Below, piece after piece: positions 1,275 through 64,000 of a DNA stretch of 64,000 nt; positions within the stretch are counted from its first letter, which is position 1, and the number at the start of each line of letters is the position of its first letter. The notes under the pieces are model-generated. The model was not told the origin of the DNA and searched no databases. It was given only the letters and a program-made list of their open reading frames with translations. Position numbers and translations under genes: made by a program. The stretch comes from Ignavibacteria bacterium (lineage in GTDB: Bacteria > Bacteroidota > Ignavibacteria > Tepidaquicellales > Tepidaquicellaceae), in contig JABAQZ010000005.1 in NCBI GenBank assembly GCA_019187405.1, positions 62,001-126,000 on the forward strand. Direction: 5' to 3'.

Positions 1275-2002
1275 CTATTTTATTACTCCAAATACCTTTT
1301 CTATTTCCACTATTTTTTCGTTGTTCATATTAATAACCCCTCTTTCTTTAAATTCTTCCAATAAATCTTTGTCTTTAAAATCTTCAACTGTTAAATCATA
1401 AAATGAATATTCAATATCTAACTTTTGTAAAATCTCGGTTGGTTCAGGAAATTTAATCTTGTAAATGATAATATTGACTTCATCTTCTATTGTTCTATCA
1501 TCTAAAGGTTTACAATAATTTTTGAATTTATCCGGTGGATTATCTTTTAGAAAAGTTTTTAATTCTTCTTTTATTGTATCTTTGGAGTTCAAAATTTCAT
1601 CCTTCAAAAAATCCAATAAAGATTTTTGTATATTATCTTAACAGCATTAGAAGTCAAATCGCTGTCACTTGATAATATACTGCTTTGTGGAAATAAACAA
1701 TAACCGAAATTATCGTTTATAATAAACGAAACCATATTCCCAGGTTATTCAGAGATTTCAATGTTGTTTTCTTTCAGAAAGGTTACAGCTTTTATGTCAC
1801 CAAATCACGTTCGAAAATTTCTCTCTGAATTATCCAATATTATCTTAACTTCATTAATGTTGTTTTTATTTCTAAATTCAACTATGGTGTGTGCAATTTC
1901 TTCGGTTATGTTTGGCATTGAAATAATCAGAACATTTCGAGCAGAAGAAATTATATCGCAAATATCGTTATAACCAATATGCTTAATTAATTCATAACTC
2001 AT
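1275..2002 (-). pseudogene. Broken PLD-like protein gene of the defence locus
   Basis: Three consecutive minus-strand pieces read as one protein of about 240 residues. Piece 1 (2002-1808) is MSYELIKHIGYNDI..., a PLD-like N-terminus ending NSERNFRT. A TGA at 1807-1805 follows. The same frame continues FGDIKAVTFLKENNIEISE, hits TAA at 1747-1745, then continues PGNMVSFIINDNFGYCLFP to about 1625. A frameshift near 1620 joins it to a 113-codon frame (1616-1275) starting LDFLKDE and containing NPPDKF. Family members I recall have R-x-G-F-G-D-I at the first stop, so TGA probably replaced a glycine codon (GGA to TGA is one change). The start overlaps the helicase stop by four bases, so the gene was once translationally coupled to it. 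The gene is decayed unless the lesions are sequencing errors. Confidence 0.65.
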
Positions 2003-5000: not shown

Positions 5001-5283
5001 TAATGCTCACTAAAGAATCAAAATAATTTTGTTTAACTTCGCCTCTTGATTTGTTAACATTTTGCAATATCTCATACTCCCTAATTTTATCAGATAGAAT
5101 TTTTTCGACTTCCATACCGACAAGAATTTTCAAATTCCTATCTTTGACTTCCTGATGGATTTCTTCAAAGCCGGAAAAATAAAAATAACCAACAAGAAAA
5201 TATAAATTTTCTGTTGAGGGAATAATATTCTTAAAAACTTCTGAAAGTAATTTCGATTGATTAGTAATAAATTGACTATTCAA
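1999..5283 (-). CDS. PLD-SNF2 helicase of a defence locus
   Basis: A 1094-residue protein. Residues about 1-200 form a phospholipase-D-like domain with a single HKD-type set: H132-S-K-M-Y and GSSNLS at 157-162. A superfamily 2 helicase of SNF2 type follows: Q motif near Q260, Walker A DVVGLGKS at 281-288, DEAH at 352-355 and SATPFNN at 381-387. A long insert is followed by the C-terminal RecA lobe with VVFSEFAD, ATDAISEGYNLH and motif VI QRVGRINR. The C-terminal about 150 residues are charged and helical. The Walker A reads DVVGLGKS rather than the common DEVGLGKT. Proteins of this type are found beside Eco57I-type methylases; the DISARM systems also combine SNF2 helicases, PLD proteins and methylases but with different gene sets. 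It is probably an ATP-driven DNA translocase that senses or restricts foreign DNA. Confidence 0.8.
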   Translation of the reverse strand: MNSQFITNQSKLLSEVFKNIIPSTENLYFLVGYFYFSGFEEIHQEVKDRNLKILVGMEVEKILSDKIREYEILQNVNKSRGEVKQNYFDSLVSIINETDYFDTEKKQTAFKYYIEKIINGTLEIKKTLQSNHSKMYLFENKTEYSQGGEFKGTLITGSSNLSVSGLKDRYEINVVFRDDHYSEGKRLFDELWESSVEIVNGNNQDDFMNKVVKKIWIDKLPKPFSMFLRVLAEYFEVDENVRIKLPEEITKGKFINLKYQTDAIKHALNVIERHDGVIVSDVVGLGKSIIASTIAYNLNLKTIVIAPPHLYEQWNTDYRFDFNFNARVYGSGSIEKALEENQYEEEILIIIDEAHKYRNEETDMYSKLHQLCQGNKVVLLSATPFNNRPQDIYSLIRLFQIPLRSSIQTVDNLSLQFREMIREYKDIRATQKKDKENKEIVKQRVQNLAKQIRNVISPLLIRRSRIDLEVIEEYKKDLKEQKISFPIVEDPKELTYELDEIKDLYWNTLEKICPSEDEIEVQKKGGLIGARYKPTAYLKDASKFIKKLEEDFKDPNLVLQSQINLSKFMRRLLVRRFESSVDAFRISLESMIASSKRVKEYYDKLKKVPIYKKGQLPDLDELNLETGDDMQTELEFINKELDIELIEQNLKKYYERGLVFIDREDLSDDFIKDVESDIKLLEEIQNEWFKSKILPDPKLNHFKESIVKQIAKEPDRKIVVFSEFADTVRYVHEHLENDIRIYKYIGSESNASSKKIVKENFDAGIDQSKQKNDYNVLIATDAISEGYNLHRAGTIFNYDIPYNPTRVIQRVGRINRVNKKVFNKLFIYNFFPTATGENEVRIKEITTLKFEMINSLLGEDTKVLTSDVELNAYFKEEFHRLFAEDEQQSWDSEYRNLYNSLKNKHPEVIKAALEIPKRSRIRRTEKKNRTGVVLFGKKSSELAFRLGIDEKESIALGAEDAFELFKAEVNENAKVVSNNFEKIYENAKANLFKKKTEVAKDKGIREAIDKLEILIRLLPGEKDYLEDVKYVIEKLDALPLGMARKVRAISEKKLDADIKKMKEEIPHNYIIEIIKKATQIEEGEESLILAEEIK

Positions 5284-5361: not shown

Positions 5362-5544
5362 TTAAAGAAATAACAAGATTTCATTCTTTATACACGATAA
5401 AACTTCTAATGTACTCTTAAACTCAAAAACTAGATTCTCAAAAGAATTTAGAATTTTTGTAAGAAACTCAAGTCCATTTCTAAAAGTACTTTTTTCTTTT
5501 CTGCTATGATTTTTGATTCTGATTTTTATTGATTTAGAAGCCAT
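5362..5544 (-). CDS. Possible small basic ORF
   Basis: A 60-codon frame starting MASKSIKIRIKNHSRKEK, with a lysine/arginine-rich N-terminus and a hydrophobic leucine-rich C-terminal half ending EILLFL. It lies just upstream of the helicase gene on the same strand (78 bp gap), next to an inverted-repeat tract. No family is recognised and no ribosome site is visible. It may be a chance frame in AT-rich DNA or a remnant of a mobile cassette. Confidence 0.2.
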   Translation of the reverse strand: MASKSIKIRIKNHSRKEKSTFRNGLEFLTKILNSFENLVFEFKSTLEVLSCIKNEILLFL

Positions 5545-5552
5545 TGTAAACG

Positions 5553-5745
5553 TTTAGTGAGTTTAACTGCATTGATAAGTTTATAAGAAATAATTAGAGT
5601 AGTTTGCAGTTAAACTCACGTCAATAACAACGTGAAAAAGATGATTATGAAACATTTTTAAGGTCCGTTGTTGGCGACTTTCATTTGCCTGCATAAAACT
5701 CATTTACAAGCAGCACAGTTATTGCAGCAGGTAAGCTCACTAAAT
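5553..5745. repeat. Nested inverted repeats in a non-coding tract
   Basis: A perfect 15-bp inverted repeat occurs at 5557-5571 (GTGAGTTTAACTGCA) and 5605-5619. A second, 16/18 match pairs 5553-5570 with 5728-5745. A 7-bp pair AACAACG/CGTTGTT lies at 5626-5632 and 5666-5672. The inner GTTTAAC...GTTAAAC ends match the simple integron attC core pattern (RYYYAAC...GTTRRRY), but that pattern is weak because GTTTAAAC is itself palindromic. The 336-bp stretch 5545-5880 has no convincing gene. It may be a small mobile-element end (MITE-like) or a recombination site marking the border of the defence island. Confidence 0.45.
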
Positions 5746-5880
5746 ATCAACTACGATATAAAAACATAACTATATCTCAATTTTGATATTATCAGATTAG
5801 CATTTTCTGGTTACCATAACTTTATTCTCTTTATTCCGTTTCATTAGAAAATTTAAATTCGAAAATTTTATTTCTAAATT

Positions 5881-6888
5881 ATGAACATTCTAATAATCGG
5901 AGGAACAATTTTTCTTGGCAGACACATAATTGATTCAGCAATAAAGAGAAATCACAATATAGTATTATTTAACCGCGGAAAACATAATCCTGAATTATTT
6001 CCCGAACTTGAAAAAATCAAAGGCGACCGTGAAGGTGATTTAAGCGAACTGAAAAGAAGAAAATTTGATGCAGTTATCGATACCTGCGGTTATGTACCAA
6101 AAGTTGTCAGAAAATCGGCTGACTATCTCAGAGATTCTGCAGGACATTATACGTTCATATCCAGCATATCCGTTTATAAAAATGCAGGTGATTTGGATTT
6201 AGACGAAACATCGGAAACTGAATCCGTGAAAGACGGCATTACTGATACTATGACTTTGGAAAATTACGGAGCATTAAAGGCATTGTGCGAAAGAGAAGTT
6301 TCTGAAGTTTTTGGGAATGACTCCTCGCTTGTCAGGTCAGGTCTGATAGTTGGTGATGGTGATTTTTCCGACAGGTTTACTTACTGGGTAGAAAGAATAA
6401 GCAGGGGAGGGAAAGTAATTGTCCCTGTTTCAGAAACAAACAATGTTCAGTTTATTGATGTCAAAGACCTTGCTGATTGGGTAATAAAAATGACTGAAGA
6501 AAAAATCAGCGGTGTTTATAATTCTACCGGACCTCTTGAGACACTATCGCTTTATGACCTGATTAACCAGTGCATTGAATTCACGGGAAGCAGAGCAGAT
6601 TTCATCGGCATCGCTGAAGAGTTTTTGCTGAAAGAGAATGTCGTGCCTTATAAAGATTTAACATTGTGGCTGCCGGCTGATTCTGCTGGAATGAATAATG
6701 TCAATATTTCAAAAGCTAAATCCGCAGGAATGAAGATTAGACCTCTTACTGAAACACTCATTGACACAATGAAATATCACCTGTCAAGAGGAAAAGATTT
6801 TAAGCTTAGAACAGGTCTGTCTTCTGAGAGAGAAAAAGAAATATTTGACAAATGGGAAAGTGTTTCAAAATCCAAATTGGTTTGGTGA
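5881..6888 (+). CDS. NAD-dependent epimerase/dehydratase (SDR family)
   Basis: A 335-residue Rossmann protein. The N-terminal MNILIIGGTIFLGRH carries the GGTxFxGxH nucleotide-binding signature of the atypical/extended SDR group. DAVIDTCGYVP follows near residue 85, and TFISSISVY near 115 supplies the catalytic-like serine region. The canonical YxxxK is replaced by a Y-G-A-L-K stretch (NYGALKALCE), which keeps Y and K. It resembles bacterial 'NAD-dependent epimerase' proteins related to chloroplast CSP41 and isoflavone-reductase-like enzymes. The substrate is unknown; a nucleotide-sugar is one possibility. It is a single gene with 147 bp before the ABC-F gene. Confidence 0.8.
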   Translation: MNILIIGGTIFLGRHIIDSAIKRNHNIVLFNRGKHNPELFPELEKIKGDREGDLSELKRRKFDAVIDTCGYVPKVVRKSADYLRDSAGHYTFISSISVYKNAGDLDLDETSETESVKDGITDTMTLENYGALKALCEREVSEVFGNDSSLVRSGLIVGDGDFSDRFTYWVERISRGGKVIVPVSETNNVQFIDVKDLADWVIKMTEEKISGVYNSTGPLETLSLYDLINQCIEFTGSRADFIGIAEEFLLKENVVPYKDLTLWLPADSAGMNNVNISKAKSAGMKIRPLTETLIDTMKYHLSRGKDFKLRTGLSSEREKEIFDKWESVSKSKLVW

Positions 6889-9504: not shown

Positions 9505-12500
9505 ATGAAAAGATTTCTTTTCTTCTTGTCCGTATTATTTACGGGCTCATTACTATTCATGGGGCAAAAATCACAGGATAATCCGGAAAGATGGAATATT
9601 CATCCATCCATGTCCAGAATTTATCCGTCAGGTGAATATTCAACATTGCCTCAAAACGACAATCTTGTATTTTCAGAAAATGACAGGATTATCCCAACGC
9701 CGATTGGAACCTTTGCTGTTTCTCCGAATTTCAGAGTTCATCCGAGTGCAGGTACGCAGAGTGAAACTCCGATAGTAAGGCATCCGACAAATCAGCAGAT
9801 AATGCTGGCTTCTGCAAACACTTTCAGAGGAGGTTCTACATTCAGCACAGGTGTTTATGTAACTACTAACGGCGGATTGAACTGGTTTGGAAGTGATACA
9901 TTAAACAACGGAGGGTTTAACAGCGGAGATCCCGGACCTGTAATTGACAAAGACGGCAGATTTCTTATGTCATACATAACCACCGCATTCTCAATGGGTG
10001 CAAGTTATTCAACAAACAATGGAATAAACTGGGCTCCAACGGTAACATTTCCCGGAGCATCGACAAGCGCTGATAAAAATTTATCTGGAACCGATGACGC
10101 TCCATCGAGTGCATATTATGGAAGAAGTTATACTGTATATACAGAATTTGGCGGTTCTTATGTTAACAGAATTGTAATATCATATACTTCAAATGGAGGA
10201 GTAAGCTGGTCAACTGTTGCGCCTGTAAGTCCTCCAACATCATCAGGACATCATCATCAAGGTTGTGATGTCAGATGCGGACCAAACGGCGAAGTTTATG
10301 TTGTATGGGCAAACTGCACAACGAACGGCCAGAATTCTACTGAAGATTCACTTGGTGTTGCCAAGTCAACAAACGGCGGTGTCAACTGGGTTTTCACGAA
10401 GAACAACGCAAACAACATGAACGGTATCAGGACTTCAGGTTTAATTAACGGAATAAGAGCAAACGGATTTCCGAGAATTGACGTTGACAGATCGGGCGGT
10501 CCGAGAAACGGATGGATATATGTTGTAACAGCAGAAAAAACTGTTGCGCCTGCAACTGACGTTTCAGATGTTATTCTTCACAAATCAACAGACGGCGGAG
10601 TTACATGGACTTCTTCAAGAGTAAATCAGGATGCTGCAGGCAACGGAAAATATCAGTATATGCCTGCCGTAAGAGTTGATGAATACGGCGGAGTAAACGT
10701 AGTTTATTATGATACAAGAAACATTCCTACAAATGATTCGGCTCAGATTTATGTTTCAAGGTCAATTGACGGAGGTAGTACTTGGTCTGACATTCTTATT
10801 TCAGATCATAAGTTTAAGCCCAAACCGATATCAGGACTTGCAGGCGGTTACCAGGGAGATTATATCGGCATTACTTCCGGTAACGGAAAAGTATGGCCTT
10901 ACTGGTGTGAAGATATTACAGGAGCTTATCAAGCATGGACAGCTTATTTTGATATTGGTCCCTCCATTACGCATACACCTTTGCCTAACACCGAACAGTT
11001 AACAGGCAGCTATGCTGTCAACTGTGTAATTACGCCTGCCGGCTCAGGTATTAATCCATCTAAGACAAAATTATACTGGTCAAGGAATAATCCTTCAATT
11101 ACAGACAGCTTGTTAATGACAAACTCCGGCGGCAACAACTGGACTGCAAACATCCCGGCAAACGGCGCTGCTGCTACTTACAGATATTATATTTCCACTA
11201 CTGACAGTTTAAACAGAACGGCAACTTCTCCAAACGGCGCACCGTCTGTTTTAAATTCATTCATTGCATCAACTGACAATAGTGCACCAGTGATTACACA
11301 TACACCTTTACCGGATCAGCCAAAACCCGTTTGGCCGTCAACAGTTTATGCAACAGTTACGGATAATCTCGGACTCGATTCGGTTTGGGTAAGATGGTAC
11401 ATTAATACTCCGGCTGTAATAAAGCATTTCAAATTAAACAATTCAAGCGGAGGCACTTATACTGCTCAGTTTAATTCAGTTAATGCAGATGTTAATGTTG
11501 GCGATATGATTTATTACAAAATATTTGCTCAGGATATTTCATTGGCACATAACAAAGACTCAAGCGCTTTAAACAGTTTTGAAATAATTGATCAATATCT
11601 TTGCGAAGGTTTTTCCGGGACCACTTTCCCGCCAGATTTCTGGACACTGCAGTACAGCGGGACACAATTTTGGACAAGAAACGATGTAAGCAGTTACGGA
11701 GTTGGAAGCGGCTCTGCTAAGTTTGATTTCTGGAGCGCCACAAGCGGAACTCAGCAGTCAATGATATCATTAGCGTTTTCAGCTTCAGTCCCGGGTGATT
11801 CGCTTAAGTTTGATCATGCTTATGCGCCATATTCCAGCGGAACCGATTCGTTAATCATTGAAACTTCAACCAATGCAGGTGCCACATATACTACTTTGGT
11901 AAGAATGTGGGGAAATGCTTCAGGAGGGACTTTGAATACTGCGTCTACTTCAACATCGGCATTTACTCCCACAAGTTCACAATGGGCAACGAAGAGATAT
12001 ACATTACCTACGGGAACAAACATGGTTAAATTCCGTGCTTACAGCGGTTATGGAAACAATCTATACATTGACAGTATATGTAAGGTTCAAGGAGATCCTC
12101 CTCCACCTCCTCCGGTTATAAATACTTCTGATGATTCGCTTGTTGTTTATTTACCATACGGCTCGAATACGACAAACAAAAATCTTGCTATTCAAAATAC
12201 AGGAGGTTCAGCGCTTAACTGGTCGCTTACCGAATTGTCAACGCTTGCCGATAAAATGAAAACACAGAATCCATTTTCTGAAGAGGATATAATCAGAATG
12301 ATGAATCAGCCAAAAGGCGCAGAGGACATTTATCATGGTTCGGAAGTATTGGACGGACAAGGCGGTCCTGACGGATTTGGATACATCTGGATTGACAGTG
12401 ATGAACCGGGAGGTCCTGTATATAATTATGCGGATATTTCAGGAGTAGGGACACAAATTACTGCTTGGTCAAACAGCAATGCCGATGACGGTTATGCAAC

Positions 12501-33960: not shown

Positions 33961-36333
33961 TTATTTTACAAGGATCATTTTCTTAGTCTGTACAAAATTG
34001 TCAGCTCTCAGTGTGTAATAATAAACACCGCTGGGAAGTCCGCCTGAAATCGAGGATGTATTGAAAGTTACCTTATATGTACCCGCTCCGACCAAAGCAG
34101 ATTGATTTTCACTAATAAGCGAAGCAACATGTCTGCCTAATGCGTCATAAACATTTAAGCTTACGTTTTGTGATTCAGGAATGCTGAATGTAATTGATGT
34201 AACCGGATTAAAAGGATTCGGATAATTTTGTCCAAGATAATAATCTTCAGGTATTACTGCAGATATCTGCTTAATGTCAATTGATCCGCCTGCAAGCGTA
34301 TATCTCTTTGCAAAATCCTGGAGATACTGATTAGCCGCAAGTGAATCATAAATGAATAATAGATTTTCATCATTTCCCGTTGTGGCAGCGGTTGAATAAT
34401 TGTATGATCCTGTCTGCAATATCGGATTGCTTGAAGGCATATCAGAATCAATCAGAATGTATTTACTGTGCATAAGTCCCGTCTGACCGTCAAGGTAAAC
34501 TGGTGCCGGCGGATTCCACGGTATCGATCCGCCAATTCCTTTCATTTCCGGATAAACACTCGAAGGATCAGTTCCGTTACCGTCATCAAATACTCCTCTG
34601 ACCATTTTTGAAGGAGGATTAAACTGCGCTTTCATTTTATTTGCAATGTTAAATCTGGTAAATGCAAAGGCACAGAAAAATATTGATTTGTTTGTATTAA
34701 ACTCTATCATATTTTCAACCATTGTCGAAGTGTTATCGGAAGGTGAAAAATAACATTCGACTCTTTTACCGTTAATATTGAAAATATGAGGTGTGTTATC
34801 AAGCTTCGATGTTCCGAATTTTGCATTTGAAGGATTATTAATTTCATTATGAGAACCCCACATTTCCTCAAATTCTCTTGTATAAGCATTGCACAATGCC
34901 TGATCCTGTATGAAAATCACGTTTTGAGCATCTGTATAAAACTGGTCATTTGTAATATTTGCAGATCCTGTCCAAAGCCAGTCATCGCTGAATGAATTGT
35001 CATTTCGAGCATCAAATATGAAAAACTTATTGTGCATTATGTTTGATCCCTGCGGTCTTTGCTGAACTTTCACGCCCGCATTTATCAGATCCTGCACAAG
35101 CTGTTGAATGCTTCCGTCTCTGTGATCATATACCATCCTTACTTTTACTCCGCGAATCAGCGCGTTAATTAATTTATCTTTTATTTGTGTAACCTCATTA
35201 AAAGAATACATTGCAAGATCAATCGAATAATCAGCAGAATCTATTCTCTGTCCTAATCTCACTTTTAAATCAACATCCCCAACTGCGTTGTTTCCCGGCA
35301 TTGCAAAAGAATTATCCACCGGTTTGTTAAAGTAAATTTCAAATTTTCCCGTTGATGAAGGATGTGATGCAGTCGAAAAATACTTGGGTGAACTTACACT
35401 TGTACCCTGTGCGTTTGTCGAGTATGCCAAAGCATAATAAATTTTTCCGGGAGATAGACTCGTCAGTGTTACGCTGTGGTTTGTTGTCTGCACAGCGCTG
35501 TAAACAGAATCAGTGAATACTACATTCTGATTTGACGAATCAGACCTGAAATACTTTAGTTTTGTATCGCCGGCGTTTTGAGTTGTCCAGTTAAGTGTGA
35601 TGCTTGTTGGAGAAATGTTGGTCTCAGAAGGAGGTGTCTGTATTATCGGACCCCCGCTTTGAAAAATGTCCGTTGTAAATCTTGGCAGAAACTGATATCC
35701 TGAATTATATGGCGCTGAAGATTTAAATTGTGATGCAGCTGCAATACAGTCAAATGTACCCGTAGGTATCAACGTTCCTACGAGATTACTATTATTGTCA
35801 ATTCTTAACTGTGTATTTCCAGTAGCATCGCCGACATTGTAGTTAGTATTTGGCTGAAATGTACCAGTGCCTGTTATTGTAAGACCGTTTATTCTGATCA
35901 ATCTCCCTTCCCATTCCTCATGTCCGTTCCATGCCTGATTTATAAATTGTGATACGGTAATTGTATATATCTGATATGAATTACCAGAACTTACAATGCT
36001 GAATGAAGGCGTTCCGCCGTTTGTAGAATAAACAAGTTCTGTCAGACCGTTAAAATGAGACAACTTAGCTGTAACAATTACGCTGTCGCCTATAGATACT
36101 GCTGCTGATAATTCGTTATAAAACACGGCAATTCCGCCTGTATTGTCCTGAAGATATGAAGGTCCGCCAAACTGGTTAGCTACTGTTACCACTCCTGTAA
36201 CAGTTTTAAACTGTCCTGTATCAGTCGGAACTCCGTTTGAATTATTTATCGTAATTGAGCTGATCGGTACTACCTGTCCATAAATTTCCGTAATTAGAAG
36301 CAGGAAAAATATTATTGAAAAACATTTTTTCAT
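33961..36333 (-). CDS. Secreted phospholipase-D-fold protein with FN3 and T9SS sorting domain
   Basis: A 790-residue protein with a signal peptide (to about TEIYGQ). An OB-fold-like segment at about 25-220 (GVVTVANQFGGPSYLQDNTGGI) resembles those on secreted nucleases. A fibronectin III domain follows at about 230-325, then a PLD domain with two full HKD motifs: HNKFFIFD with GSANI, and HSKYILID with GSYNYS. The C-terminal type A sorting domain has YPNPFNPVTSITF and ends KKMILVK. Two HKD motifs in one chain form one active site, acting on phosphodiesters: DNA, RNA or phospholipids. It is the last gene of an operon that starts at 44487; it follows the membrane protein by 6 bp. Confidence 0.85.
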   Translation of the reverse strand: MKKCFSIIFFLLLITEIYGQVVPISSITINNSNGVPTDTGQFKTVTGVVTVANQFGGPSYLQDNTGGIAVFYNELSAAVSIGDSVIVTAKLSHFNGLTELVYSTNGGTPSFSIVSSGNSYQIYTITVSQFINQAWNGHEEWEGRLIRINGLTITGTGTFQPNTNYNVGDATGNTQLRIDNNSNLVGTLIPTGTFDCIAAASQFKSSAPYNSGYQFLPRFTTDIFQSGGPIIQTPPSETNISPTSITLNWTTQNAGDTKLKYFRSDSSNQNVVFTDSVYSAVQTTNHSVTLTSLSPGKIYYALAYSTNAQGTSVSSPKYFSTASHPSSTGKFEIYFNKPVDNSFAMPGNNAVGDVDLKVRLGQRIDSADYSIDLAMYSFNEVTQIKDKLINALIRGVKVRMVYDHRDGSIQQLVQDLINAGVKVQQRPQGSNIMHNKFFIFDARNDNSFSDDWLWTGSANITNDQFYTDAQNVIFIQDQALCNAYTREFEEMWGSHNEINNPSNAKFGTSKLDNTPHIFNINGKRVECYFSPSDNTSTMVENMIEFNTNKSIFFCAFAFTRFNIANKMKAQFNPPSKMVRGVFDDGNGTDPSSVYPEMKGIGGSIPWNPPAPVYLDGQTGLMHSKYILIDSDMPSSNPILQTGSYNYSTAATTGNDENLLFIYDSLAANQYLQDFAKRYTLAGGSIDIKQISAVIPEDYYLGQNYPNPFNPVTSITFSIPESQNVSLNVYDALGRHVASLISENQSALVGAGTYKVTFNTSSISGGLPSGVYYYTLRADNFVQTKKMILVK

Positions 36334-50096: not shown

Positions 50097-51377
50097 TTAT
50101 TTACCAAACTGCTCGGTTTCAGTCGATCCTTCAAGGGCAGTTGTTGCAGTATGTCCTGAAGTAATTGTTAGTTGTACTTTGTCAAAATAACCAGTACCTA
50201 CAAATGACTGATGCTTGATCGCTTTAAATCCGGATGTTCTTTCAAGCTCAAACTCAAGTTCCTGAAGTTTAGTAAAAGCGCTCATTCCATAATCTTTATA
50301 ATCCATTGCGAGCTGAAACATTGTAGTATTAAGAGCATGGAATCCGGCAAGAGTAATAAACTGATACTTGTAACCCATTTCAGCAAGTTTCTCCTGAAAA
50401 TCCGCTATCTGATTATCGTTTAGATTTCTCTTCCAATTAAACGAAGGTGAACAATTATACGCCAGTAGTTTTCCCGGAAATTGTTCGTGGATTCCATCGG
50501 CAAATTCTTTTGCTTCAATTAAATCCGGATGTGCAGTTTCACACCATATTACATCTGCATAAGGCGAATATGAAAGTCCTCTTTCGATTGCGCATTCCAA
50601 ACCGCCTTTGATATTGAAAAAGCCTTCGAAAGTTCTTTTACCGTAAATAAATTTCTGATCTCTCTCATCAATATCATTGGTAAGTAAATTTGCGCTGTTT
50701 GCATCTGTTCTCGCAATTAATACCGTAGGCACACCCATAATATCAGACGCAAGTCTTGCTGAAACCAGCGTGTTGATAAATTCTCTTGTAGGAACCAAAA
50801 CTTTCCCGCCAAGATGACCGCATTTTTTTGCCGAGCTAAGCTGATCTTCAAAATGAACTCCGGCAGCTCCCGCCTCTATCGTTGCTTTCATTAACTCGAA
50901 AACATTTAATGATCCTCCGAATCCTGCTTCAGCATCTGCAACAATTGGAGCAAACCAGTAAATGTCATCTTTACCTTCCAAATGTGATATCTGATCAGCC
51001 CTTGATAAAGCATTATTAATTCTTTTCACAACCGACGGAACACTGTTTGCCGGATACAAACTCTGATCCGGATAAGTATGTCCTGCATTGTTTGCGTCAG
51101 CAGCTACTTGCCAGCCGCTTAAATAAATTGATTTTAATCCTGCCTGTACCTGCTGAACAGCCTGATTTCCCGTCAATGCGCCAAGAGCTCTTACAAATTT
51201 ATCATGCGTGAGCAACTTCCAAAGTCTTTCTGCTCCAAGCATGGCAAGCGTGTATTCAATTTTTACTGATCCTCGTAAATCATAAACTTCTTTAGCATTG
51301 TAAGGACGTTCAATGCCTTCCCATCTGCTGCTGTTCCAAGCATTCTGTATTTTTTCTATTTGCGATTTTTTATTCAT
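50097..51377 (-). CDS. aceA: Isocitrate lyase
   Basis: A 426-residue enzyme of the short bacterial class. The catalytic loop KKCGH is at residues 184-188, [21 protein letters not shown] is the conserved context, and the metal-binding [11 protein letters not shown] lies near 145. It splits isocitrate into glyoxylate and succinate, the first step of the glyoxylate shunt. It follows malate synthase by 21 bp on the same strand, so they form an aceB-aceA operon. This supports growth on acetate or fatty acids. Confidence 0.96.
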
Positions 51378-51398
51378 TTAGTATGTGAGTTTAAATTA

Positions 51399-52979
51399 TT
51401 AAATAAAGTCGTAAGCAATTAAAGTTAAAAATTCATTGAAATTTTTGTCTGTTGAAAGTTTATTAAAAAGTTTTACTGCCGTCTCATATTTGCCATCACG
51501 GTAATTCTGATCTCCAACAATACTCTTGATTTTTACGAGTTCTTCTTCAAGCAGCTTTTTATACAACTCTTCAGTAACTTTTCTTCCGTCTTTTAATATT
51601 CCTTTTTCGTGATGAATCCACTGCCATATCTGAGCTCTTGATATTTCCACAGTAGCTGCATCCTCCATTAAATTATATATAGGTACACAGCCGTTGCCTT
51701 TGAGCCAGGCTTCGAGATATTGTATGGACACATTTATATTCTGTCTTAATCCATCTTCAGTAATTTCTCCTTCGGGTACTTCGAGTAAATCTTTGGCTGT
51801 AACATTTACATCGTTTCTTTTATTTGAAATCTGATTTGCTTCAGGCATTAGGTTGTCAAAAATATCCTTAGCAATACCGATAAGACCGGGATGAGCAACC
51901 CAGGTGCCGTCATGTCCGTCGTTTGCTTCTCTTTCTTTATCGGCTTTAATCTTAGCAATTGCTTCATTGTTTTTTTCGGGATTGTTTTTTATAGGAATTT
52001 GCGCAGCCATGCCTCCCATTGCATGAATACCTCGCTTGTGGCAGGTTTTTATCACAAGTTGTGAATAAGATTTTAGAAAATGAACATTCATTGTTACAAG
52101 GCTTCTGTCAGGTAAAACAAACTCGCTGAAGTTTCTGAATTTTTTTATAAAACTGAAAATATAATCCCAGCGACCGCAATTTAATCCAGACGAATGATCC
52201 TTAAGTTCATATAAAATTTCATCCATTTCAAAAGCTGCAAGAATTGTTTCAATGAGGACAGTTGCTCTGATAGTTCCTCGCGGAATCCCTATATAATCCT
52301 GTGCAAAGTCAAACGCGTCATTCCATAGCCGCGCTTCAAGGTGATTTTCCAGTTTAGGAAGATAGAAATACGGACCGGTTCCGCTTTGCAAAAGTTTTTT
52401 TGCATTATGAAAGAAATATAAACCGAAATCAAAAAATGATCCTGAAATTTCCTGACCATCCGATTTTGCATTTTTTTCATTCAAATGCAATCCTCTTGGA
52501 CGAACCATTAAAACAGCGGTCTTCTCATTAAGTTTATAAAGTTTGCCGTCGGGATTTGTAAAAGAGATAGTCCTTTCGATTGCATCTTTTAGATTTATTT
52601 GTCCTTCAATAATATTTTCCCAGGTTGGTGAATTTGAATCTTCAAAATCAGCCATAAAAACATTTGCACCGGAATTAAGAGCATTAATTATCATTTTTCT
52701 GTCAACAGGTCCGGTAATTTCCACTCTTCTGTCTTTTAAATCATCTGGAATTTCAGCAACAGTCCAGTTCCCTTCGCGGATTGATTTTGTTTCAGGAAGG
52801 AAATCAGGCATGATTCCGGAATTTATCTGTTGCTGTCTTTCTTCTCTTTTTCTTAACAGCTCTAATCTTCTTTCATTAAAATTTTTATGCAACTCGTGGA
52901 CAAAATCTAATGCATCATCACTTAAAATTTCCGCATAATTATTTTTCAGGATACCGGTAATTTGAATTTTATTTTTCAT
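51399..52979 (-). CDS. aceB: Malate synthase A
   Basis: A 526-residue malate synthase A. ANVFMADFEDSNSPTWEN near 108, IRATVLIETILAAFEMDEI near 240 and GLNCGRWDYIFSFIKKF hold the catalytic Arg/Glu/Asp set. It condenses glyoxylate with acetyl-CoA. It starts the aceBA operon, with a 171-bp gap to the divergent RmlD-like gene. No aceK is seen. Confidence 0.96.
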   Translation of the reverse strand: MKNKIQITGILKNNYAEILSDDALDFVHELHKNFNERRLELLRKREERQQQINSGIMPDFLPETKSIREGNWTVAEIPDDLKDRRVEITGPVDRKMIINALNSGANVFMADFEDSNSPTWENIIEGQINLKDAIERTISFTNPDGKLYKLNEKTAVLMVRPRGLHLNEKNAKSDGQEISGSFFDFGLYFFHNAKKLLQSGTGPYFYLPKLENHLEARLWNDAFDFAQDYIGIPRGTIRATVLIETILAAFEMDEILYELKDHSSGLNCGRWDYIFSFIKKFRNFSEFVLPDRSLVTMNVHFLKSYSQLVIKTCHKRGIHAMGGMAAQIPIKNNPEKNNEAIAKIKADKEREANDGHDGTWVAHPGLIGIAKDIFDNLMPEANQISNKRNDVNVTAKDLLEVPEGEITEDGLRQNINVSIQYLEAWLKGNGCVPIYNLMEDAATVEISRAQIWQWIHHEKGILKDGRKVTEELYKKLLEEELVKIKSIVGDQNYRDGKYETAVKLFNKLSTDKNFNEFLTLIAYDFI

Positions 52980-54086: not shown

Positions 54087-55397
54087 ATGGCAATAAATTT
54101 TAACAAGTTTACAATTAAGTCACAGGAAGCAGTTCAAAATGCGCAGGAAATTGCTTCTACATATTCCAATCAGCAGATAGAGCCGGAACACATATTTGCG
54201 GCATTGATTCAGGACCCCGAGGGGATTGTAGCTTCTACGCTTCAGAAGTTGGGAGCAAACAAGGATTTTCTACAGGCAAAAACCGGAGAATTGTTAGAGA
54301 GGCTTCCAAAAGTTTCCGGCTCAGGAATGAGTCAGACATTTTCAAGAGAAGGAACCGAAGCGTTAGAAAATGCTGTAAAAGAAGCAAGCTCCTTGAAAGA
54401 TGAATATGTTTCTACAGAGCATATACTTTTAGGATTGACTGACGTAAAAAAATCAGGAGTAACAGAGCTTCTCAAATCCCAGGGTATAAATAAAAACGGA
54501 GTTTTAAAAGCATTAAAAGAAATCAGGGGTTCTAACAGAGTTACGGGACAAAATCCCGAAGATACGTATCAGGCTTTAATGAAATACGGAAGGAATCTGA
54601 ATGAGCTTGCAGAAAAGGGAAAACTTGATCCGGTAATAGGAAGGGAAGATGAAATCAGAAGAGTACTGCAGGTGCTTTCAAGAAGGACTAAAAATAATCC
54701 CGTTCTAATTGGCGAGCCTGGTGTAGGAAAGACGGCGATTGCAGAAGGACTTGCATTCAGGATTATACAGGGTGATGTTCCGGAAAATCTGAGAACAAAA
54801 AAAATTATTGCGCTTGACATGGGATCGCTTGTTGCGGGAGCGCAGTTCAGAGGACAATTTGAAGAGAGACTTAAAGCAGTATTAAAAGAAGTACAGGAAT
54901 CGAACGGAGAAATTATACTTTTCATTGACGAGCTTCACACAGTAGTTGGAGCAGGAGCTGCGCAAGGTTCGGTGGATGCATCAAACATGCTTAAGCCGGC
55001 GCTTGCAAGAGGGGATTTAAGGACAATCGGAGCTACGACATTGGATGAATACAGAAAATACATTGAGAAAGATCCGGCGCTTGAAAGAAGATTTCAGCCT
55101 GTGTTTGTGGGCGAACCCGACATTGAAGATACAATTTCGATTTTGAGAGGATTAAAAGAAAAGTATGAAGTTCACCACGGTGTAAGGATAACCGACGGAG
55201 CAATTGTCGCAGCAGCACAATTATCAGATAGATACATATCTGACAGATTTCTGCCTGACAAAGCCATTGATCTTGTTGATGAAGCTGCATCGAAGTTAAG
55301 GATAGAGATTGATTCGATGCCAGAAGAGCTTGACAACATTGAAAGAAAGATAAAGCAGCTGGAGATTGAAAAGGAAGCTTTGAAGAGGGAGTTGTAA
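54087..55397 (+). CDS. clpB: ClpB N-domain and first AAA+ domain only (truncated)
   Basis: A 436-residue protein; full ClpB is about 860. The N-domain (about 1-145) starts [23 protein letters not shown]-1 has Walker A GEPGVGKT at 209-216, Walker [10 protein letters not shown], sensor region [14 protein letters not shown] and the Arg finger in ALERRFQPV, then [17 protein letters not shown]. The frame stops at KEALKREL, the start of the middle coiled coil; AAA-2 (second Walker A) is missing. The 741 bp downstream show no trace of the remainder in any frame. It is either a real deletion or rearrangement, or an assembly join. A single AAA-1 lacks the aggregate-remodelling cycle of ClpB, so the function is doubtful. 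Confidence 0.9.
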
Positions 55398-56138: not shown

Positions 56139-59100
56139 ATGTTTACGAATTTTACAAATTTACGTAACATTCAAACTTTGATTCTTATGCTGGTCATGTT
56201 TATTCAAGTTTCTTTTTTATCGGCACAGGAATCAAATCCGGTAGATCTCAAGGAAAGAATAAAATCAAGAAAAATTTCCGATCAGAATACCGGTAAAAGC
56301 GGACAAAACTCACAAATGTCCATAATCATTAATGTTCCGTTAAATTATCCCACGATACAGGGAGCTATAAATGCTGCCAATAACGGTGACATTATAAATA
56401 TAAGTGCAGGCACTTATAGAGAAGATATAACATTAAACAAACCGATACAAATCAGGGGAGCCAATTATGGTATTAACCCAAATACGGGAATGAGGGGACC
56501 TGAAACTATCATTCAGCCGGCAACATCTGATCCTGATCCTTACAGCCCGACGGCTGTAACCTTTTTTTATATCGGCAGCAACGGCAGCGGAGCAGTTATT
56601 GACGGTATAACATTTGACGGAGACAATCCGACACTTACAAGTTCAGTAAACATAAACGGTGCAAACATAGATGCGGCTGAGGCAATCGGAGCTTATGACG
56701 GGCTTGCAAATATCATGATCAGCAATAACATAATTAAGAATGTTAATTATGCGGGAATTGATTTATACAATTATACAAACGGAGGAGCATCTACATACGA
56801 CAACACGGTAAGCGACAACAAATTTGATAATATAATGCCTTCAATATTCGGCATAGGAGTACTTATATACAATAATTGTTACTGCAGTATTTCGGATAAT
56901 GTAATGACAAGAGTTAGAGTAGGCGTTCAAACGGGAAACTTCTACAATGCCGATCTTGGATTAAATCACTCAATAAACAACAATGAAATCGAATCATCTC
57001 GTTTGGGTATTTGGTATAACCTTTCATATACAAATGCATCAACCTTTATTATCTCAAATAATGAAATAACAACTTATTCCGGCGCAACAAACAACAATGG
57101 AATTTCAGTTACATCCGTTCAAAGTTCGGTAAGCGTAACAGTAACAGACAATATAATTTCAGATGCCAGAAATGGATACAATCTTTGGAATTGTCCAACT
57201 ACGAGCAATGTAACAATAACCGGAGGGACAGTAACGAATTGCAATGTCGGAGTATTTGCAAATAATTATGACGGATATTCTTCAAATGCGGATCCTTCTT
57301 CGTATGCAATGACGGGAATAACTTTAACAAACTGTGATACGGGAGTCTGGGTAAGAGATAACAGTCTTAACACAAATAATTCAACGGTAGCATTAAGCAT
57401 AAACAATACAACCAACATTATTTCCGGTACAGGAATTGGCGTATTGCTTGAAGGAGGAGATGCATCTTTAGCATTTTCCGGAGCAGTTCCGGTGGATTTC
57501 AGTACATCGCTCAGCAAATATATAAGACTTGCATCAAATACAATCAACACACCAACAGGTATGGTAAATGCAGAGAATGTAACCTTTGGAGGGTTAGCAG
57601 GATCTGCAATGACAAATGCACAGCTCTTTGCGGTAGAAGATAAGATTGACCATAAAATAGACTGGAGCAGTCTTGGTTTTGTATCAATAAAAATTTACAA
57701 CAAGTATTTAACATTAAACAGTTACTATACACCCGAAACAACTTCACCTTTAATATCGAGAGGAATAGATGCAGCGGCATCCGGAGATACATTAAATTTA
57801 GGTGCAGGTACATTTAATGAAAGCGTTACAATAAACAAATCAATAACATTAAAAGGAAGCGGAACATCGGTTACGATACTTGCACCGAGTGTAATTTGTA
57901 CCGGTGATGGTATTAATGTCAATACATCGAATGTTAACGTTAATGATTTAACTGTAAAAGAATTCAACTATGGTTTAAGGACATCAGCTTCGAACATAAA
58001 ATTTTATAATGTAGAAAGCATATTAAACTGTCAATATGCAATTACAACGAATACAGGAACTAACGGACTTACAATATTAAAATGTAAATTCAACAGCAAC
58101 GTTGTTGGAGGATGGAGGGCAGGAACAGGTGATTTAATCAACAACGTATTAATAGACAGCAGTGAAGTAAAGTACAACGGAACGGGAGGCAACGGATTTG
58201 GAATCTTTGCCGCAGCGTCAACACCGGCTGCAAATACATTTGATAATATTACCATTAAGAATTCCGATTTCAGCAGAAATCTTAGAAAAGGAATGTATTT
58301 TGAAAAGTTAAGATATGCATTGATTGACAATGTAATTATGGACAGCAGCGGAACAGATGCCACATACGGATTTAACAATGGAATAGATATCAACTTGAAA
58401 TATGATTCTTATACTGATATTACAATTCAGAATTGCTCAATTACAAACTGCGGATTTAACGGAACTGCGACAAATCCCGATAATCCTTCGGCAGTTACCA
58501 TAAAAGCAAGAGATGACAGTCCGTCATACAGCTCGGATCCTGCAACATTATCGACAGTTGCGTTTAAGAATAATTTTGTAAGCGGACCAAGAAACGGACT
58601 GAGATTTGGTGAATTTGATAAAGTGAATAATACGCCTTCCGGAATTACGGTAATTGAAAATGATTTCGGCAACGGATATTTAAACAAGGCAGTTCTTAAC
58701 AAAACAGCAAGCAATATCGCGATAAGCTGTAATTGGTATGGTACTGCCATTGCGTCATCGGTAGTAGCTCTTCACGGAAGTAATTTAACATTTCTTCCAT
58801 ACCTTGTAAACGGGACTGATAATAATCTTTCACTTCCGGGATTTCAGCCGGTTCCAGGAAGTTGTACGGGTACAGGTCCAGTTGTCAATCTGACACAAAG
58901 CACGGATTATGTAACAATACAGTCTGCAATTAATGCGGCAAATCCTTTTGATGTTATACAAGCAAGTGAAGGAACATACAACGAGCGCGTAACAATCACA
59001 AAGTCATTGACACTTCAGGGAGTAAACGAAGTTAACTGCAAGGTTGACGGCACGGGATTATCCGGAACGGGCAGGGGAATTCTGATATCCAACGGAATAA

Positions 59101-62100
59101 CCGACGTCATAATAAAGAGACTTACGGTACAGAATTTTGCAGGAGCAAGCGGTAACACGGATGCGGGAATATATGCTATAGGAGGCAACAACAGTCTTTT
59201 GATCGAACATGTAACGATAAAGAATAATGTAGGAGGCAGCGGATTTTATGCAAACGGACCGATAAACAATGTAACGATAGATTCAGTAACCTCATCGGGA
59301 CATACATCAGGAGCCAGAGGAATAGTAATATGGAACGGCTTGAAGGAAAACATAAGCATAACCAATTGTACAGTATTCAACAACAACTGCTGCGGAATAG
59401 AGCTTCAGGACGGTCAGGCAAGCGGAGTAACGATAACGGGAAACAATATACATGACAATGGAGACAACGGCATAGGAGTAGTAGGACTACAGGGACCGGG
59501 CGAGAATCTGATTAAGCTGAATACATTGCTCAATAACGGCAGATTCGGGATAGAGCTTAAGAATCCGAATGGAAGCGGAGCAGTAAGCGGAGCAGGAAGG
59601 ATAGTAGTAGAGGATAATAATGTATCGAGGACAATAGCAATAGTGGACAACCGCGATATATGCGGTATAGCTTCATTCAGAAGGAGCGTGTTAGTTGGAA
59701 ATGTTGACATACCGACCGGAACAGTGATACAGAACAATACAGTAAGCGGCTATACACAGCCGAGCACAAGCGAAGGCTTTGGAATAGTAGTAGAGGGAAT
59801 GAATCACACAGTAACGGGAAACAATGTAAGCGGATGTGATGTAGGCATACAGCGTCAGGCGGGACATCTGCCGTATCCCGGAGACGGAGATCAGAGCAAT
59901 CTTGCAGACACATATTTTGGCAGAGGCAATTCGCCGATGACATGCGGAGTGACCGTAAGCGGCAACATACTATCGAATACGATAAACACGAGAGACGTCG
60001 GAACGACGGGATCGGGAATAGTAAAGAATCTCAATACCGGGGAAATGTTTTGCTCTATTCAGTCTGCAATTAATGATGCGAACACGGCTAATGGAGACAC
60101 AATCAGCGTTGAGGAAGGTACATATAATGAGCAGGTATTGGTAACAAAAGGTGTCTTAATCAGAGGCGAAGGAAGTCCAAAACCTGTGATTGACTTTACC
60201 GGAACAGTATCAGGCAAACCGACATTATTTGATGTATCCGTACGAGACGTTAGATTAGAAAATCTGCGCATGAGAGTAGATATGACAAAACTAAACAGCG
60301 CAATAATAGCAAGCGGAACTGATATTGATAACATAACAGTAAAGAATGATTCAATTGAGGCTTATGGTTCAAGCGCAGCAGCAACGTTTGGGAGTTACGG
60401 AAACAGAAATGCAATAAGTATTAATTACGGCGGACCGATAAATTACAGAATAGCAGCCGGAGGAGTTGATAATGTATTGGTTGAAGGAAGTTATGTATCG
60501 GGAGTACCTGATGACGGATTTGGAGTTGCACGTTATTTCCGATCGGCAGTATCCGGAGATGAATGCGGCGGAGACTTTAACGGAAATACATTTCAGACAA
60601 TTAATCATGATGTGCTTGTAAGGTTTGGCAGTAATGGTAACGTAAATATTTTGGGAAATAATTTAATCGGCGGCGGAGCAGAAATATCAGACATGAATGC
60701 AGGAGCCGGAGTTATTACAATTTCCGATAACAGCTTTGATGCTGCATTTGCAAATGTCTCAGCTCCAAACTCGGCAGTCTTGAGATTGAAGAATAATTAT
60801 TATTCAAAAACGACTTTGGTCTCTGGAAATATATTTACAAATCATCAATGGGCTATAAGTTCGGAGAATTACAATACTCTTACTATTGACAGCAATACAT
60901 TCACCCCATACAGTGGTTCAACGATATTTCATCATATTGCGATTAATACAAAATCAATTTCTACGAATTCTAATACGATATTACAAGTTCCGGTAAATGC
61001 TGTTTTGACAAACAATACTTTTAATTATTCAGGGACAGCCGGCGGAACTGCTTTAAGTTTTCATAATCATGATAATGATGCAGCTTCGATTGGAACGTTT
61101 ACTGTTGGGACAACAGGAAATGAGAATATTTTCAACAATGGCATTGCTAATTTTGTATTGCTTGACAGTCAAACCGGAGCAAGCAGTGGTTCGACTTTCC
61201 CGGCATATACATCTTTGATAGGTGTAGGTGCAGGCGCAATAACGACAATGGCTTGCTGGTCAAACGATGTGAATGTCGAGAATAATCTTTTTGATGTAGG
61301 TTCGGGACTTCAGCTACCTTCAGCAATGAATTTTTCTGAAAGGAGTACACTTGAGACTAATCTATATCATAAGCCTGACAATTCATGTTTAGGAAATCTC
61401 ACTTTCTTTTTACCGGTACATAATCTGACACAAAATACTTATTACATGACAATTCAGAGCGCCGTTAATGCAGCTAATCCGTTTGATGTGATAGAATGTG
61501 CGGAGTATACATACAACGAGCGCGTAACAATCACAAAGTCATTGACACTTCAGGGAGTAAACGAAGTTAACTGCAAGGTTGACGGCACGGGATTATCCGG
61601 AACGGGCAGGGGAATTCTGATATCCAACGGAATAACCGACGTCATAATAAAGAGACTTACGGTACAGAATTTTGCAGGAGCAAGCGGTAACACGGATGCG
61701 GGAATATATGCTATAGGAGGCAACAACAGTCTTTTGATCGAACATGTAACGATAAAGAATAATGTAGGAGGCAGCGGATTTTATGCAAACGGACCGATAA
61801 ACAATGTAACGATAGATTCAGTAACCTCATCGGGACATACATCAGGAGCCAGAGGAATAGTAATATGGAACGGCTTGAAGGAAAACATAAGCATAACCAA
61901 TTGTACAGTATTCAACAACAACTGCTGCGGAATAGAGCTTCAGGACGGTCAGGCAAGCGGAGTAACGATAACGGGAAACAATATACATGACAATGGAGAC
62001 AACGGCATAGGAGTAGTAGGACTACAGGGACCGGGCGAGAATCTGATTAAGCTGAATACATTGCTCAATAACGGCAGATTCGGGATAGAGCTTAAGAATC

Positions 62101-64000
62101 CGAATGGAAGCGGAGCAGTAAGCGGAGCAGGAAGGATAGTAGTAGAGGATAATAATGTATCGAGGACAATAGCAATAGTGGACAACCGCGATATATGCGG
62201 TATAGCTTCATTCAGAAGGAGCGTGTTAGTTGGAAATGTTGACATACCGACCGGAACAGTGATACAGAACAATACAGTAAGCGGCTATACACAGCCGAGC
62301 ACAAGCGAAGGCTTTGGAATAGTAGTAGAGGGAATGAATCACACAGTAACGGGAAACAATGTAAGCGGATGTGATGTAGGCATACAGCGTCAGGCGGGAC
62401 ATCTGCCGTATCCCGGAGACGGAGATCAGAGCAATCTTGCAGACACATATTTTGGCAGAGGCAATTCGCCGATGACATGCGGAGTAACCGTAAGCGGCAA
62501 CATACTATCGAATACGATAAACACGAGAGACGTCGGAACGACGGGATCGGGAATAGTAAAGAATCTCAATACCGGAAAGATGTTTTGCTCGATACAGTCT
62601 GCCATAGATGATGCGACAACATTGAATACTCATGTTATTGATATAGATTCCGCAAATTATACCGAAAGCGTAGTTGTAAACAAAGAGTTAACAATAAGAG
62701 GAAACGGAGGATCTCCGAATTCAAAACCAGTTGTTGAAGGAGTTTCCGGACAGACATTTTCTGTAACAGCTCCAAATGTTACGATTGATAATGTTTTGGT
62801 AAGATTTAATCAGACGACAGTTAATACCGGAATCAGAGCAGCAACGTCTGGAAGTTTTAATAACCTTACAATAAAAAACAGCTGTATATACGGAACAGCA
62901 ACAACCGGAGTTGTAATCTTTGCAAGTTTCGGGATTCAGCTTGGTACATTTGGCGGAGCGCTTTATGATAATGTAAGTCTTGACAGTAATGAAATTAAAC
63001 ATACAGGTACTTCTCCATTGGGAAGGGGAGTCAAAACATATAATTGTTACGGTGACTGGAAGAACAGCATTGTTGAAGGATATTACTCATACCAGTCCGG
63101 AGATATTCAGGGCGGTATCCTCAACATCACCGGAAACACAATGAAAGGTGAAACTGAAATAAATTATCTTGGTAGCGGCTCACACAGCTTCTCTGGTAAT
63201 ACATCAAGTCCGTCGAATGCATTTGGTTCAGGTACAGATTTTGCGATGCTTGAACTAAAAAACATTTCTTTAGCGGGTGCAAATATTATAGTTTCAAATA
63301 ATAATTTCCTTAACTATACAAACTTCGGAGTATTTTCCGGAAGGTCAAACAATGTTACGATTGACAATAACATTTTTACTCCGGATCCTACTGCCGTAAT
63401 TTTTAAATCTGTAAGGATTGATACAAAGCAAAGGACGATAGCGCCACAGCCAGCTTTTGTAAGCGGAGCAACAATTACAAAAAATACATTTAACGGAAAC
63501 ACAGCATTAGGTCAAACAGGAATTTCGGTTGAAATTGCAAACTCGGATAGTTTATCGAGTATCGGAACTGTAATTCTTGGAACTGCAGGAAATGAGAATA
63601 ACTTTAGTAATAATGTCAGCAAGCGCATCGTATTGAACAATGAAACTACTTCAACATCAGGCGATCCTTATTGGACTGGTACTTACATTTCTACAAAAGC
63701 AAAAGTTACTGCAGATATAGATGCCATAAATAATAAGTATGATGTTGGCTCAGGGCTGGAATTTCCTTTATCGATGTCAATTACAAATCTGTTTTCACTT
63801 GAAGACAAGATTCAGCATGTTATAGATGATGGAGGACTTGGATTAGTTACGGTAAAAGCTAATAATGATTATGTAACAGTGAACAGTTTTGTCTCGCCGG
63901 CTACAACAACTCCTTCTATTCAAAGAGGAATAGATGCAGCTTCATCGGGATTTACGGTAAATGTAGGACCGGGTAGTTTTACGGAACAATTGGAGATCAA
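56139..64000 (+). CDS. Giant secreted parallel beta-helix repeat protein (3' end cut by window)
   Basis: An open frame of 2620 codons from ATG at 56139 to the right edge with no stop. The signal segment is IQTLILMLVMFIQVSFLSAQ. Seven modules share an opening of the type IQxAIxxAxxGDxIxVxxGxYxExxxIxKxxxIxG, starting near 56340, 57720, 58890, 60050, 61430, 62590 and 63890. Each is followed by Asn/Gly-rich strands (GNNIHDN, ENNVSR and similar) of a right-handed parallel beta helix, as in DUF1565 and pectate-lyase-like proteins, and one NWYG motif is seen near 58735. Linkers of the type VEDKIxHxID precede modules 2 and 7. It is probably a surface adhesin or carbohydrate-binding protein. The C-terminus, perhaps with a sorting domain, is outside the window. 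Confidence 0.8.
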   Translation, partial: MFTNFTNLRNIQTLILMLVMFIQVSFLSAQESNPVDLKERIKSRKISDQNTGKSGQNSQMSIIINVPLNYPTIQGAINAANNGDIINISAGTYREDITLNKPIQIRGANYGINPNTGMRGPETIIQPATSDPDPYSPTAVTFFYIGSNGSGAVIDGITFDGDNPTLTSSVNINGANIDAAEAIGAYDGLANIMISNNIIKNVNYAGIDLYNYTNGGASTYDNTVSDNKFDNIMPSIFGIGVLIYNNCYCSISDNVMTRVRVGVQTGNFYNADLGLNHSINNNEIESSRLGIWYNLSYTNASTFIISNNEITTYSGATNNNGISVTSVQSSVSVTVTDNIISDARNGYNLWNCPTTSNVTITGGTVTNCNVGVFANNYDGYSSNADPSSYAMTGITLTNCDTGVWVRDNSLNTNNSTVALSINNTTNIISGTGIGVLLEGGDASLAFSGAVPVDFSTSLSKYIRLASNTINTPTGMVNAENVTFGGLAGSAMTNAQLFAVEDKIDHKIDWSSLGFVSIKIYNKYLTLNSYYTPETTSPLISRGIDAAASGDTLNLGAGTFNESVTINKSITLKGSGTSVTILAPSVICTGDGINVNTSNVNVNDLTVKEFNYGLRTSASNIKFYNVESILNCQYAITTNTGTNGLTILKCKFNSNVVGGWRAGTGDLINNVLIDSSEVKYNGTGGNGFGIFAAASTPAANTFDNITIKNSDFSRNLRKGMYFEKLRYALIDNVIMDSSGTDATYGFNNGIDINLKYDSYTDITIQNCSITNCGFNGTATNPDNPSAVTIKARDDSPSYSSDPATLSTVAFKNNFVSGPRNGLRFGEFDKVNNTPSGITVIENDFGNGYLNKAVLNKTASNIAISCNWYGTAIASSVVALHGSNLTFLPYLVNGTDNNLSLPGFQPVPGSCTGTGPVVNLTQSTDYVTIQSAINAANPFDVIQASEGTYNERVTITKSLTLQGVNEVNCKVDGTGLSGTGRGILISNGITDVIIKRLTVQNFAGASGNTDAGIYAIGGNNSLLIEHVTIKNNVGGSGFYANGPINNVTIDSVTSSGHTSGARGIVIWNGLKENISITNCTVFNNNCCGIELQDGQASGVTITGNNIHDNGDNGIGVVGLQGPGENLIKLNTLLNNGRFGIELKNPNGSGAVSGAGRIVVEDNNVSRTIAIVDNRDICGIASFRRSVLVGNVDIPTGTVIQNNTVSGYTQPSTSEGFGIVVEGMNHTVTGNNVSGCDVGIQRQAGHLPYPGDGDQSNLADTYFGRGNSPMTCGVTVSGNILSNTINTRDVGTTGSGIVKNLNTGEMFCSIQSAINDANTANGDTISVEEGTYNEQVLVTKGVLIRGEGSPKPVIDFTGTVSGKPTLFDVSVRDVRLENLRMRVDMTKLNSAIIASGTDIDNITVKNDSIEAYGSSAAATFGSYGNRNAISINYGGPINYRIAAGGVDNVLVEGSYVSGVPDDGFGVARYFRSAVSGDECGGDFNGNTFQTINHDVLVRFGSNGNVNILGNNLIGGGAEISDMNAGAGVITISDNSFDAAFANVSAPNSAVLRLKNNYYSKTTLVSGNIFTNHQWAISSENYNTLTIDSNTFTPYSGSTIFHHIAINTKSISTNSNTILQVPVNAVLTNNTFNYSGTAGGTALSFHNHDNDAASIGTFTVGTTGNENIFNNGIANFVLLDSQTGASSGSTFPAYTSLIGVGAGAITTMACWSNDVNVENNLFDVGSGLQLPSAMNFSERSTLETNLYHKPDNSCLGNLTFFLPVHNLTQNTYYMTIQSAVNAANPFDVIECAEYTYNERVTITKSLTLQGVNEVNCKVDGTGLSGTGRGILISNGITDVIIKRLTVQNFAGASGNTDAGIYAIGGNNSLLIEHVTIKNNVGGSGFYANGPINNVTIDSVTSSGHTSGARGIVIWNGLKENISITNCTVFNNNCCGIELQDGQASGVTITGNNIHDNGDNGIGVVGLQGPGENLIKLNTLLNNGRFGIELKNPNGSGAVSGAGRIVVEDNNVSRTIAIVDNRDICGIASFRRSVLVGNVDIPTGTVIQNNTVSGYTQPSTSEGFGIVVEGMNHTVTGNNVSGCDVGIQRQAGHLPYPGDGDQSNLADTYFGRGNSPMTCGVTVSGNILSNTINTRDVGTTGSGIVKNLNTGKMFCSIQSAIDDATTLNTHVIDIDSANYTESVVVNKELTIRGNGGSPNSKPVVEGVSGQTFSVTAPNVTIDNVLVRFNQTTVNTGIRAATSGSFNNLTIKNSCIYGTATTGVVIFASFGIQLGTFGGALYDNVSLDSNEIKHTGTSPLGRGVKTYNCYGDWKNSIVEGYYSYQSGDIQGGILNITGNTMKGETEINYLGSGSHSFSGNTSSPSNAFGSGTDFAMLELKNISLAGANIIVSNNNFLNYTNFGVFSGRSNNVTIDNNIFTPDPTAVIFKSVRIDTKQRTIAPQPAFVSGATITKNTFNGNTALGQTGISVEIANSDSLSSIGTVILGTAGNENNFSNNVSKRIVLNNETTSTSGDPYWTGTYISTKAKVTADIDAINNKYDVGSGLEFPLSMSITNLFSLEDKIQHVIDDGGLGLVTVKANNDYVTVNSFVSPATTTPSIQRGIDAASSGFTVNVGPGSFTEQLEI
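58974..60040 (+). repeat. 1067-bp repeat copy 1 inside the beta-helix gene
   Basis: This segment is identical to 61509-62575 (offset 2535 bp, 845 codons, in frame) except at 59951/62486 (G to A), a synonymous change in a valine codon. The identity stops sharply at both ends, while outside the ends the protein is still similar but the DNA differs. It covers most of module 3 and stops just before module 4. Confidence 0.9.
61509..62575 (+). repeat. 1067-bp repeat copy 2 inside the beta-helix gene
   Basis: The second copy, in module 5 of the same frame. It has A at 62486 where copy 1 has G. The upstream flank (TIQSAVNAANPFDVIECAEYT versus TIQSAINAANPFDVIQASEGT) is similar in protein but differs in many bases, so the modules are old and the core looks newly homogenised. 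Confidence 0.9.

Follow-up and report, generated by a model that had tools for sequence, protein, structure and literature searches.

A 3,985-amino-acid open reading frame (ORF) on the forward strand of the window (the whole 64,000-nucleotide stretch of Ignavibacteria DNA that was analysed) contains two nearly identical copies of a domain, X. These copies probably occupy old, separate contexts in a modular secreted protein and were recently homogenised by homologous recombination (gene conversion). Direct comparison of X core copy 1 (X1, 58974–60040) with copy 2 (X2, 61509–62575) gave 1066 identical positions out of 1067 bp, with abrupt edges. The single mismatch, at offset 978 (59951 G, 62486 A), is silent, the valine codon being GTG in X1 and GTA in X2. 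The copies are spaced by 2535 bp and share one frame within one ORF. Both the near identity and the in-frame spacing had been claimed in a preliminary description of this DNA and are confirmed here; the ORF exits the window. The assembled genome (3.78 Mb, 38 contigs) holds these two copies of the 1067-bp stretch and no further ones, and chance similarity is excluded as the source of the match.

The ORF occupies 56139–64000 of the window, ends at the window equivalent of 68096, and matches Pfam Beta_helix and DUF1565. Its product is predicted to be a secreted multi-domain right-handed beta-helix protein with a hydrophobic N-terminal leader, judged by eye; the leader and domains together suggest a surface location. 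Pfam Beta_helix (PF13229) scored 53.3 bits against a curated cut-off of 25.9, with its best stretch inside X1. The model TIGR04247 for the copper maturation protein NosD reached 83.5 bits on the ORF, far under the NCBIfam cut-off of 300. No Por_Secre_tail-type match was found in the giant ORF by domain search; type IX sorting signals are present in the genome, and a PLD-like protein with Por_Secre_tail is encoded at 33961–36333 on the reverse strand.

Self and cross comparison gave the module order M1-M2-X1-Y1-X2-Y2-M3-M4-M5-Cterm, all on the forward strand. M1, a beta-helix module (approximate limits 56316–57653), is 63–68% identical in amino acid sequence to its relatives, and M2 (approximate limits 57654–58883) is 66–68% identical to its counterparts in genomes G009 and G011. 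The repeated core corresponds to the 355-amino-acid domain X without its first coil, the head (90 bp), which is head A (58884–58973) for X1 and head B (61419–61508) for X2. X1 is followed by Y1 (60041–61418) and X2 by Y2 (62576–63863). X is the sole homogenised module of the ORF. A second old module pair, M3/M5, lies past the window end (L003:8978–10077 and 11315–12414) and shows 69% DNA identity and no homogenisation; G001 and G016 have one M3/M5-like module at this place and no M4, as if recombination had deleted it.

Outside the cores, similarity falls away. The two heads agree at 59 of 90 bases and differ at 31, and downstream of the cores a brief similar stretch is followed by the end of DNA similarity. 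Y1 and Y2 share approximately 31–36% amino acid identity, and beyond the heads the relationship between modules is visible at the protein level only. The earlier suggestion that similar but diverged flanks record an old module duplication therefore holds insofar as the heads have diverged and Y1 and Y2 are old paralogues, but the similar flanks themselves are just the short module heads.

Between species, 54–78% of fourfold sites in X differ, whereas a single silent change separates X1 from X2 over 355 codons. Because X differs from its G009 counterpart at 54% of fourfold sites, the identity of X1 and X2 does not reflect shared slow evolution. These sequence comparisons indicate that recombination between the copies, or a young duplication, is needed to account for their likeness, which protein-level selection could not produce. 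The within-genome copies are closer to each other than to their orthologues, silent sites included, as in concerted evolution. That the duplication predates the homogenisation is indicated by the diverged heads and Y modules and by the occurrence of the X-Y1, Y1-X, and X-Y2 linkages elsewhere.

X was present in seven of the 294 class genomes sampled, its own included, and in scattered Bacteroidota, with the phylum sample adding just one more X, in single copy. With Y2 as the tracer, the gene was found in six of 29 family genomes (own included), and X directly adjoins Y2 in all five of the others. The M2-head A-X junction also occurs in G009 and G011, the X-Y1 junction in G248/L012 (Y1 at 63–64% identity), and the Y1-head-X junction in L013 (Y1 at 52%, its head at 78% amino acid identity to head B); a further Y1 orthologue is found in G012. 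Since the X-Y1, Y1-head-X, M2-head-X, and X-Y2 linkages all exist in other genomes, both X contexts are old. The modules preceding X vary greatly among relatives, even within one genus: M1-M2 in G001; M1, an M3-like module, and then a Y1-like head in G016; and M1, another module, and then Y1 in G012. In G009, M1 is itself tandemly duplicated (L011:4026–5353 and 5424–6751, 70% DNA identity). In G011 and G012, an ORF upstream of the giant gene (L050:1–2103 and L079:189–1448) ends in the same C-terminal domain at 47–48% identity, so such genes may be paired.

In four of the five relatives with the gene (G001, G016, G203, and G011), a contig begins inside X and continues through Y2. The probability of at least four of five genomes breaking inside X by chance is approximately 6.4e-5, calculated from rounded contig counts. 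In G011, only the first 57 bp of X lie on the upstream contig (73.8 kb), and the downstream one (54.6 kb) picks up again approximately 130 bp short of the X end. Such breaks would be expected if X were repeated in those relatives too, and strain variation or sequence common to several genomes can also cause them. No second X was seen in the relatives, the predicted linking contigs being absent from the bins, and the search for linking contigs in G016/G001 and G011 gave nothing beyond the known ends. The smallest of the 40 G011 contigs viewed was 5.4 kb, so the bin probably omits short contigs made of repeats. A site-specific exchange boundary at the identity edge ACATACAAC (TYNE) was also considered, because two contigs stop at nearly the same distance past the TYNE motif, G016:C191 at exactly 55 bp and G011:C40 at 57 bp. 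The idea was dropped: many contig pairs in G011 share exactly 23–24 bp tails, which would place the repeat start there approximately 33 bp inside X, and what lies at the end of the G016 contig is a Y1-like head rather than X.

In the sequence of events that we favour, X1 and X2 would have come to sit in separate, old contexts, and non-reciprocal gene conversion would recently have made them identical, with the conversion tract ending near where X1/X2 homology ends. Less firmly, the present X sequence may have come into one of the two places from a lineage of different codon composition and then been copied to the other. Identical copies would in turn favour loss or gain of the intervening Y1 segment, and the M2-X-Y2 arrangement of G009 would be the product expected of X1/X2 recombination. 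The preliminary description had already proposed that gene conversion or recent exchange keeps the core uniform; with old contexts around copies that are 99.9% identical, this is the best-supported reading, and a young duplication remains its rival.

X also stands apart in codon composition. Its GC3 is 0.44, compared with 0.29 for the rest of the ORF, 0.28 for Y1, which is host-like, and 0.28–0.35 for twelve other genes in the window. Corrected for amino acid content, the GC3 excess of X has a z score of 7.66, against -1.95 to 1.61 for other equal-sized windows of the ORF. The best-scoring raised-GC3 segments, 58977–60113 and 61500–62603, have 5' edges close to the identity limits and 3' edges 28–73 bp past them. 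In L018, a Saprospiraceae gene, the GC3 of X is strongly lowered relative to the rest of the gene (z = -6.3, segment 7926–9110), and this opposite anomaly suggests that X moves as a unit and is replaced from outside. Between the congeners G001 and G016, silent divergence of X exceeds that of M3 (45/84 versus 75/221, p = 0.002); its excess over Y2 is not significant. Composition and this divergence fit unit replacement of X from other lineages. A scan of viral contigs found no relative, no close donor of X was found, and the tree of X lacks the resolution to prove horizontal transfer. Because most X modules have mildly raised GC3, the excess might also stem from GC-biased conversion or codon selection rather than import. 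Of these, GC-biased conversion through repeated X1/X2 exchange would change only the compositional part of the preferred account, and we regard it as possible but doubtful. The confinement of raised GC3 to the converted tract speaks for it, as does G001, where X is inferred to be repeated and is also raised (z = 5.2). In G016 and G203, however, X is likewise inferred to be repeated and its GC3 is not raised, and the single-copy X of L018 deviates downward.

A recent insertion or duplication is unlikely, although it fares best among the explanations that dispense with conversion. Here the ancestor would have been M2-X-Y2, and a block of Y1-head B with a fresh X would have been inserted, leaving two young X copies. 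G009 does have M2-X-Y2 with one X, and the search for Y1 in G001, G009, G011, and G016 gave nothing apart from matches of Y2 type and one short head resembling that of Y1. Against this, the linkages of Y1 to X on either side are old (G248/L012 for X-Y1, L013 for Y1-head-X), the 31 differences between heads A and B show that the heads were not duplicated together with X, and the GC3 of Y1 is host-like and that of X is not.

Slightly less probable still is that X is a mobile beta-helix cassette, which would travel whole from one giant protein to another, unrelated one in Bacteroidota and Ignavibacteria, overwrite the resident X and, through recombination between its copies, swap the variable Y modules that separate them, making surface-protein variants.

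An assembly artefact, either one collapsed repeat entered twice or a chimeric join, with true X copies that differ or another copy number, is improbable to a similar or somewhat greater degree. Short reads cannot resolve an exact repeat nearly 1 kb long, and the contigs of four relatives break at X. All four junctions of M2-X1-Y1-X2-Y2 are, however, seen independently in other assemblies, which argues strongly against a mis-join; furthermore, the frame is intact over 3985 codons, one silent base distinguishes the copies, and the genome is in just 38 contigs. The concern raised at the outset that reads may have been mis-joined is thus largely cleared for module order and stands for collapsed reads. 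Purifying selection alone, which would draw on X being the most conserved module between species (71–85% amino acid identity), can be dismissed for practical purposes, because protein selection does not fix silent sites and the fourfold differences between species contrast with one silent site between X1 and X2.

AlphaFold confidently models X as a beta-helix over most of its length (pLDDT 85). The best Foldseek matches were AlgE6, the RbmB lyase, and tailspikes, with modest TM-scores and 10–16% sequence identity. The predicted model thus shares a right-handed beta-helix fold with the A-modules of the mannuronan C5 epimerases AlgE4/AlgE6, polysaccharide lyase, and phage tailspikes, but the likeness is one of fold alone; Pfam Beta_helix PF13229, DUF1565, and NosD likewise resemble X in fold. 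The RGIVIWNG, CCGIELQDG, PYPGD, and YFGRGN blocks of X are well conserved across Bacteroidota, which suggests a binding or active surface, and from the modelled fold X may act on glycans. The protein would likely serve as a long extracellular stalk that displays this conserved module twice, perhaps for binding or acting on glycans.

Two known systems are comparable. Periscope Proteins are variable-length bacterial surface proteins with near-identical DNA repeats, proposed to promote intragenic recombination and repeat gain or loss (PMC8201768). The giant ORF similarly encodes a large predicted surface protein whose repeats are almost the same at the DNA level, but its identical units are whole 355-amino-acid beta-helix domains that are non-adjacent, with a diverged domain between them. 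Prokaryotic duplicate genes such as tufA/tufB show long-lasting concerted evolution by gene conversion, in that paralogues resemble each other more than they do orthologues, at replacement and silent sites alike (PMC6053082). X1 and X2 are likewise closer to each other than to orthologues; they differ in being two domains inside one gene rather than two genes, and recurrence across species is here read from contig breaks alone. X1/X2 would represent concerted evolution within one gene, whose product is a modular surface protein with shuffling domains; the kind of process is already known, and the system is not a new one. New here are the codon composition peculiar to X, with edges nearly matching the identity edges, the breaks of relatives' contigs inside X, and the variation in module order between relatives. 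The locus offers a clean natural case of domain-by-domain homogenisation in one bacterial gene, with a compositional signature, in the little-studied Ignavibacteria. Short-read metagenome-assembled genomes of this group may under-count such modules, the repeat breaking the assembly where the biology happens.

Elsewhere in the window, a ClpC-like ORF of 436 amino acids (54087–55397, forward strand) carries Clp_N, AAA_lid_9, and a single AAA domain; with no second such domain before 56139, the ORF looks truncated or a short form. On the reverse strand, an SNF2-type helicase of 1094 amino acids with a PLD nuclease-like domain is encoded at 1999–5283, and isocitrate lyase adjoins malate synthase at 50097–52979, forming a glyoxylate-shunt pair.
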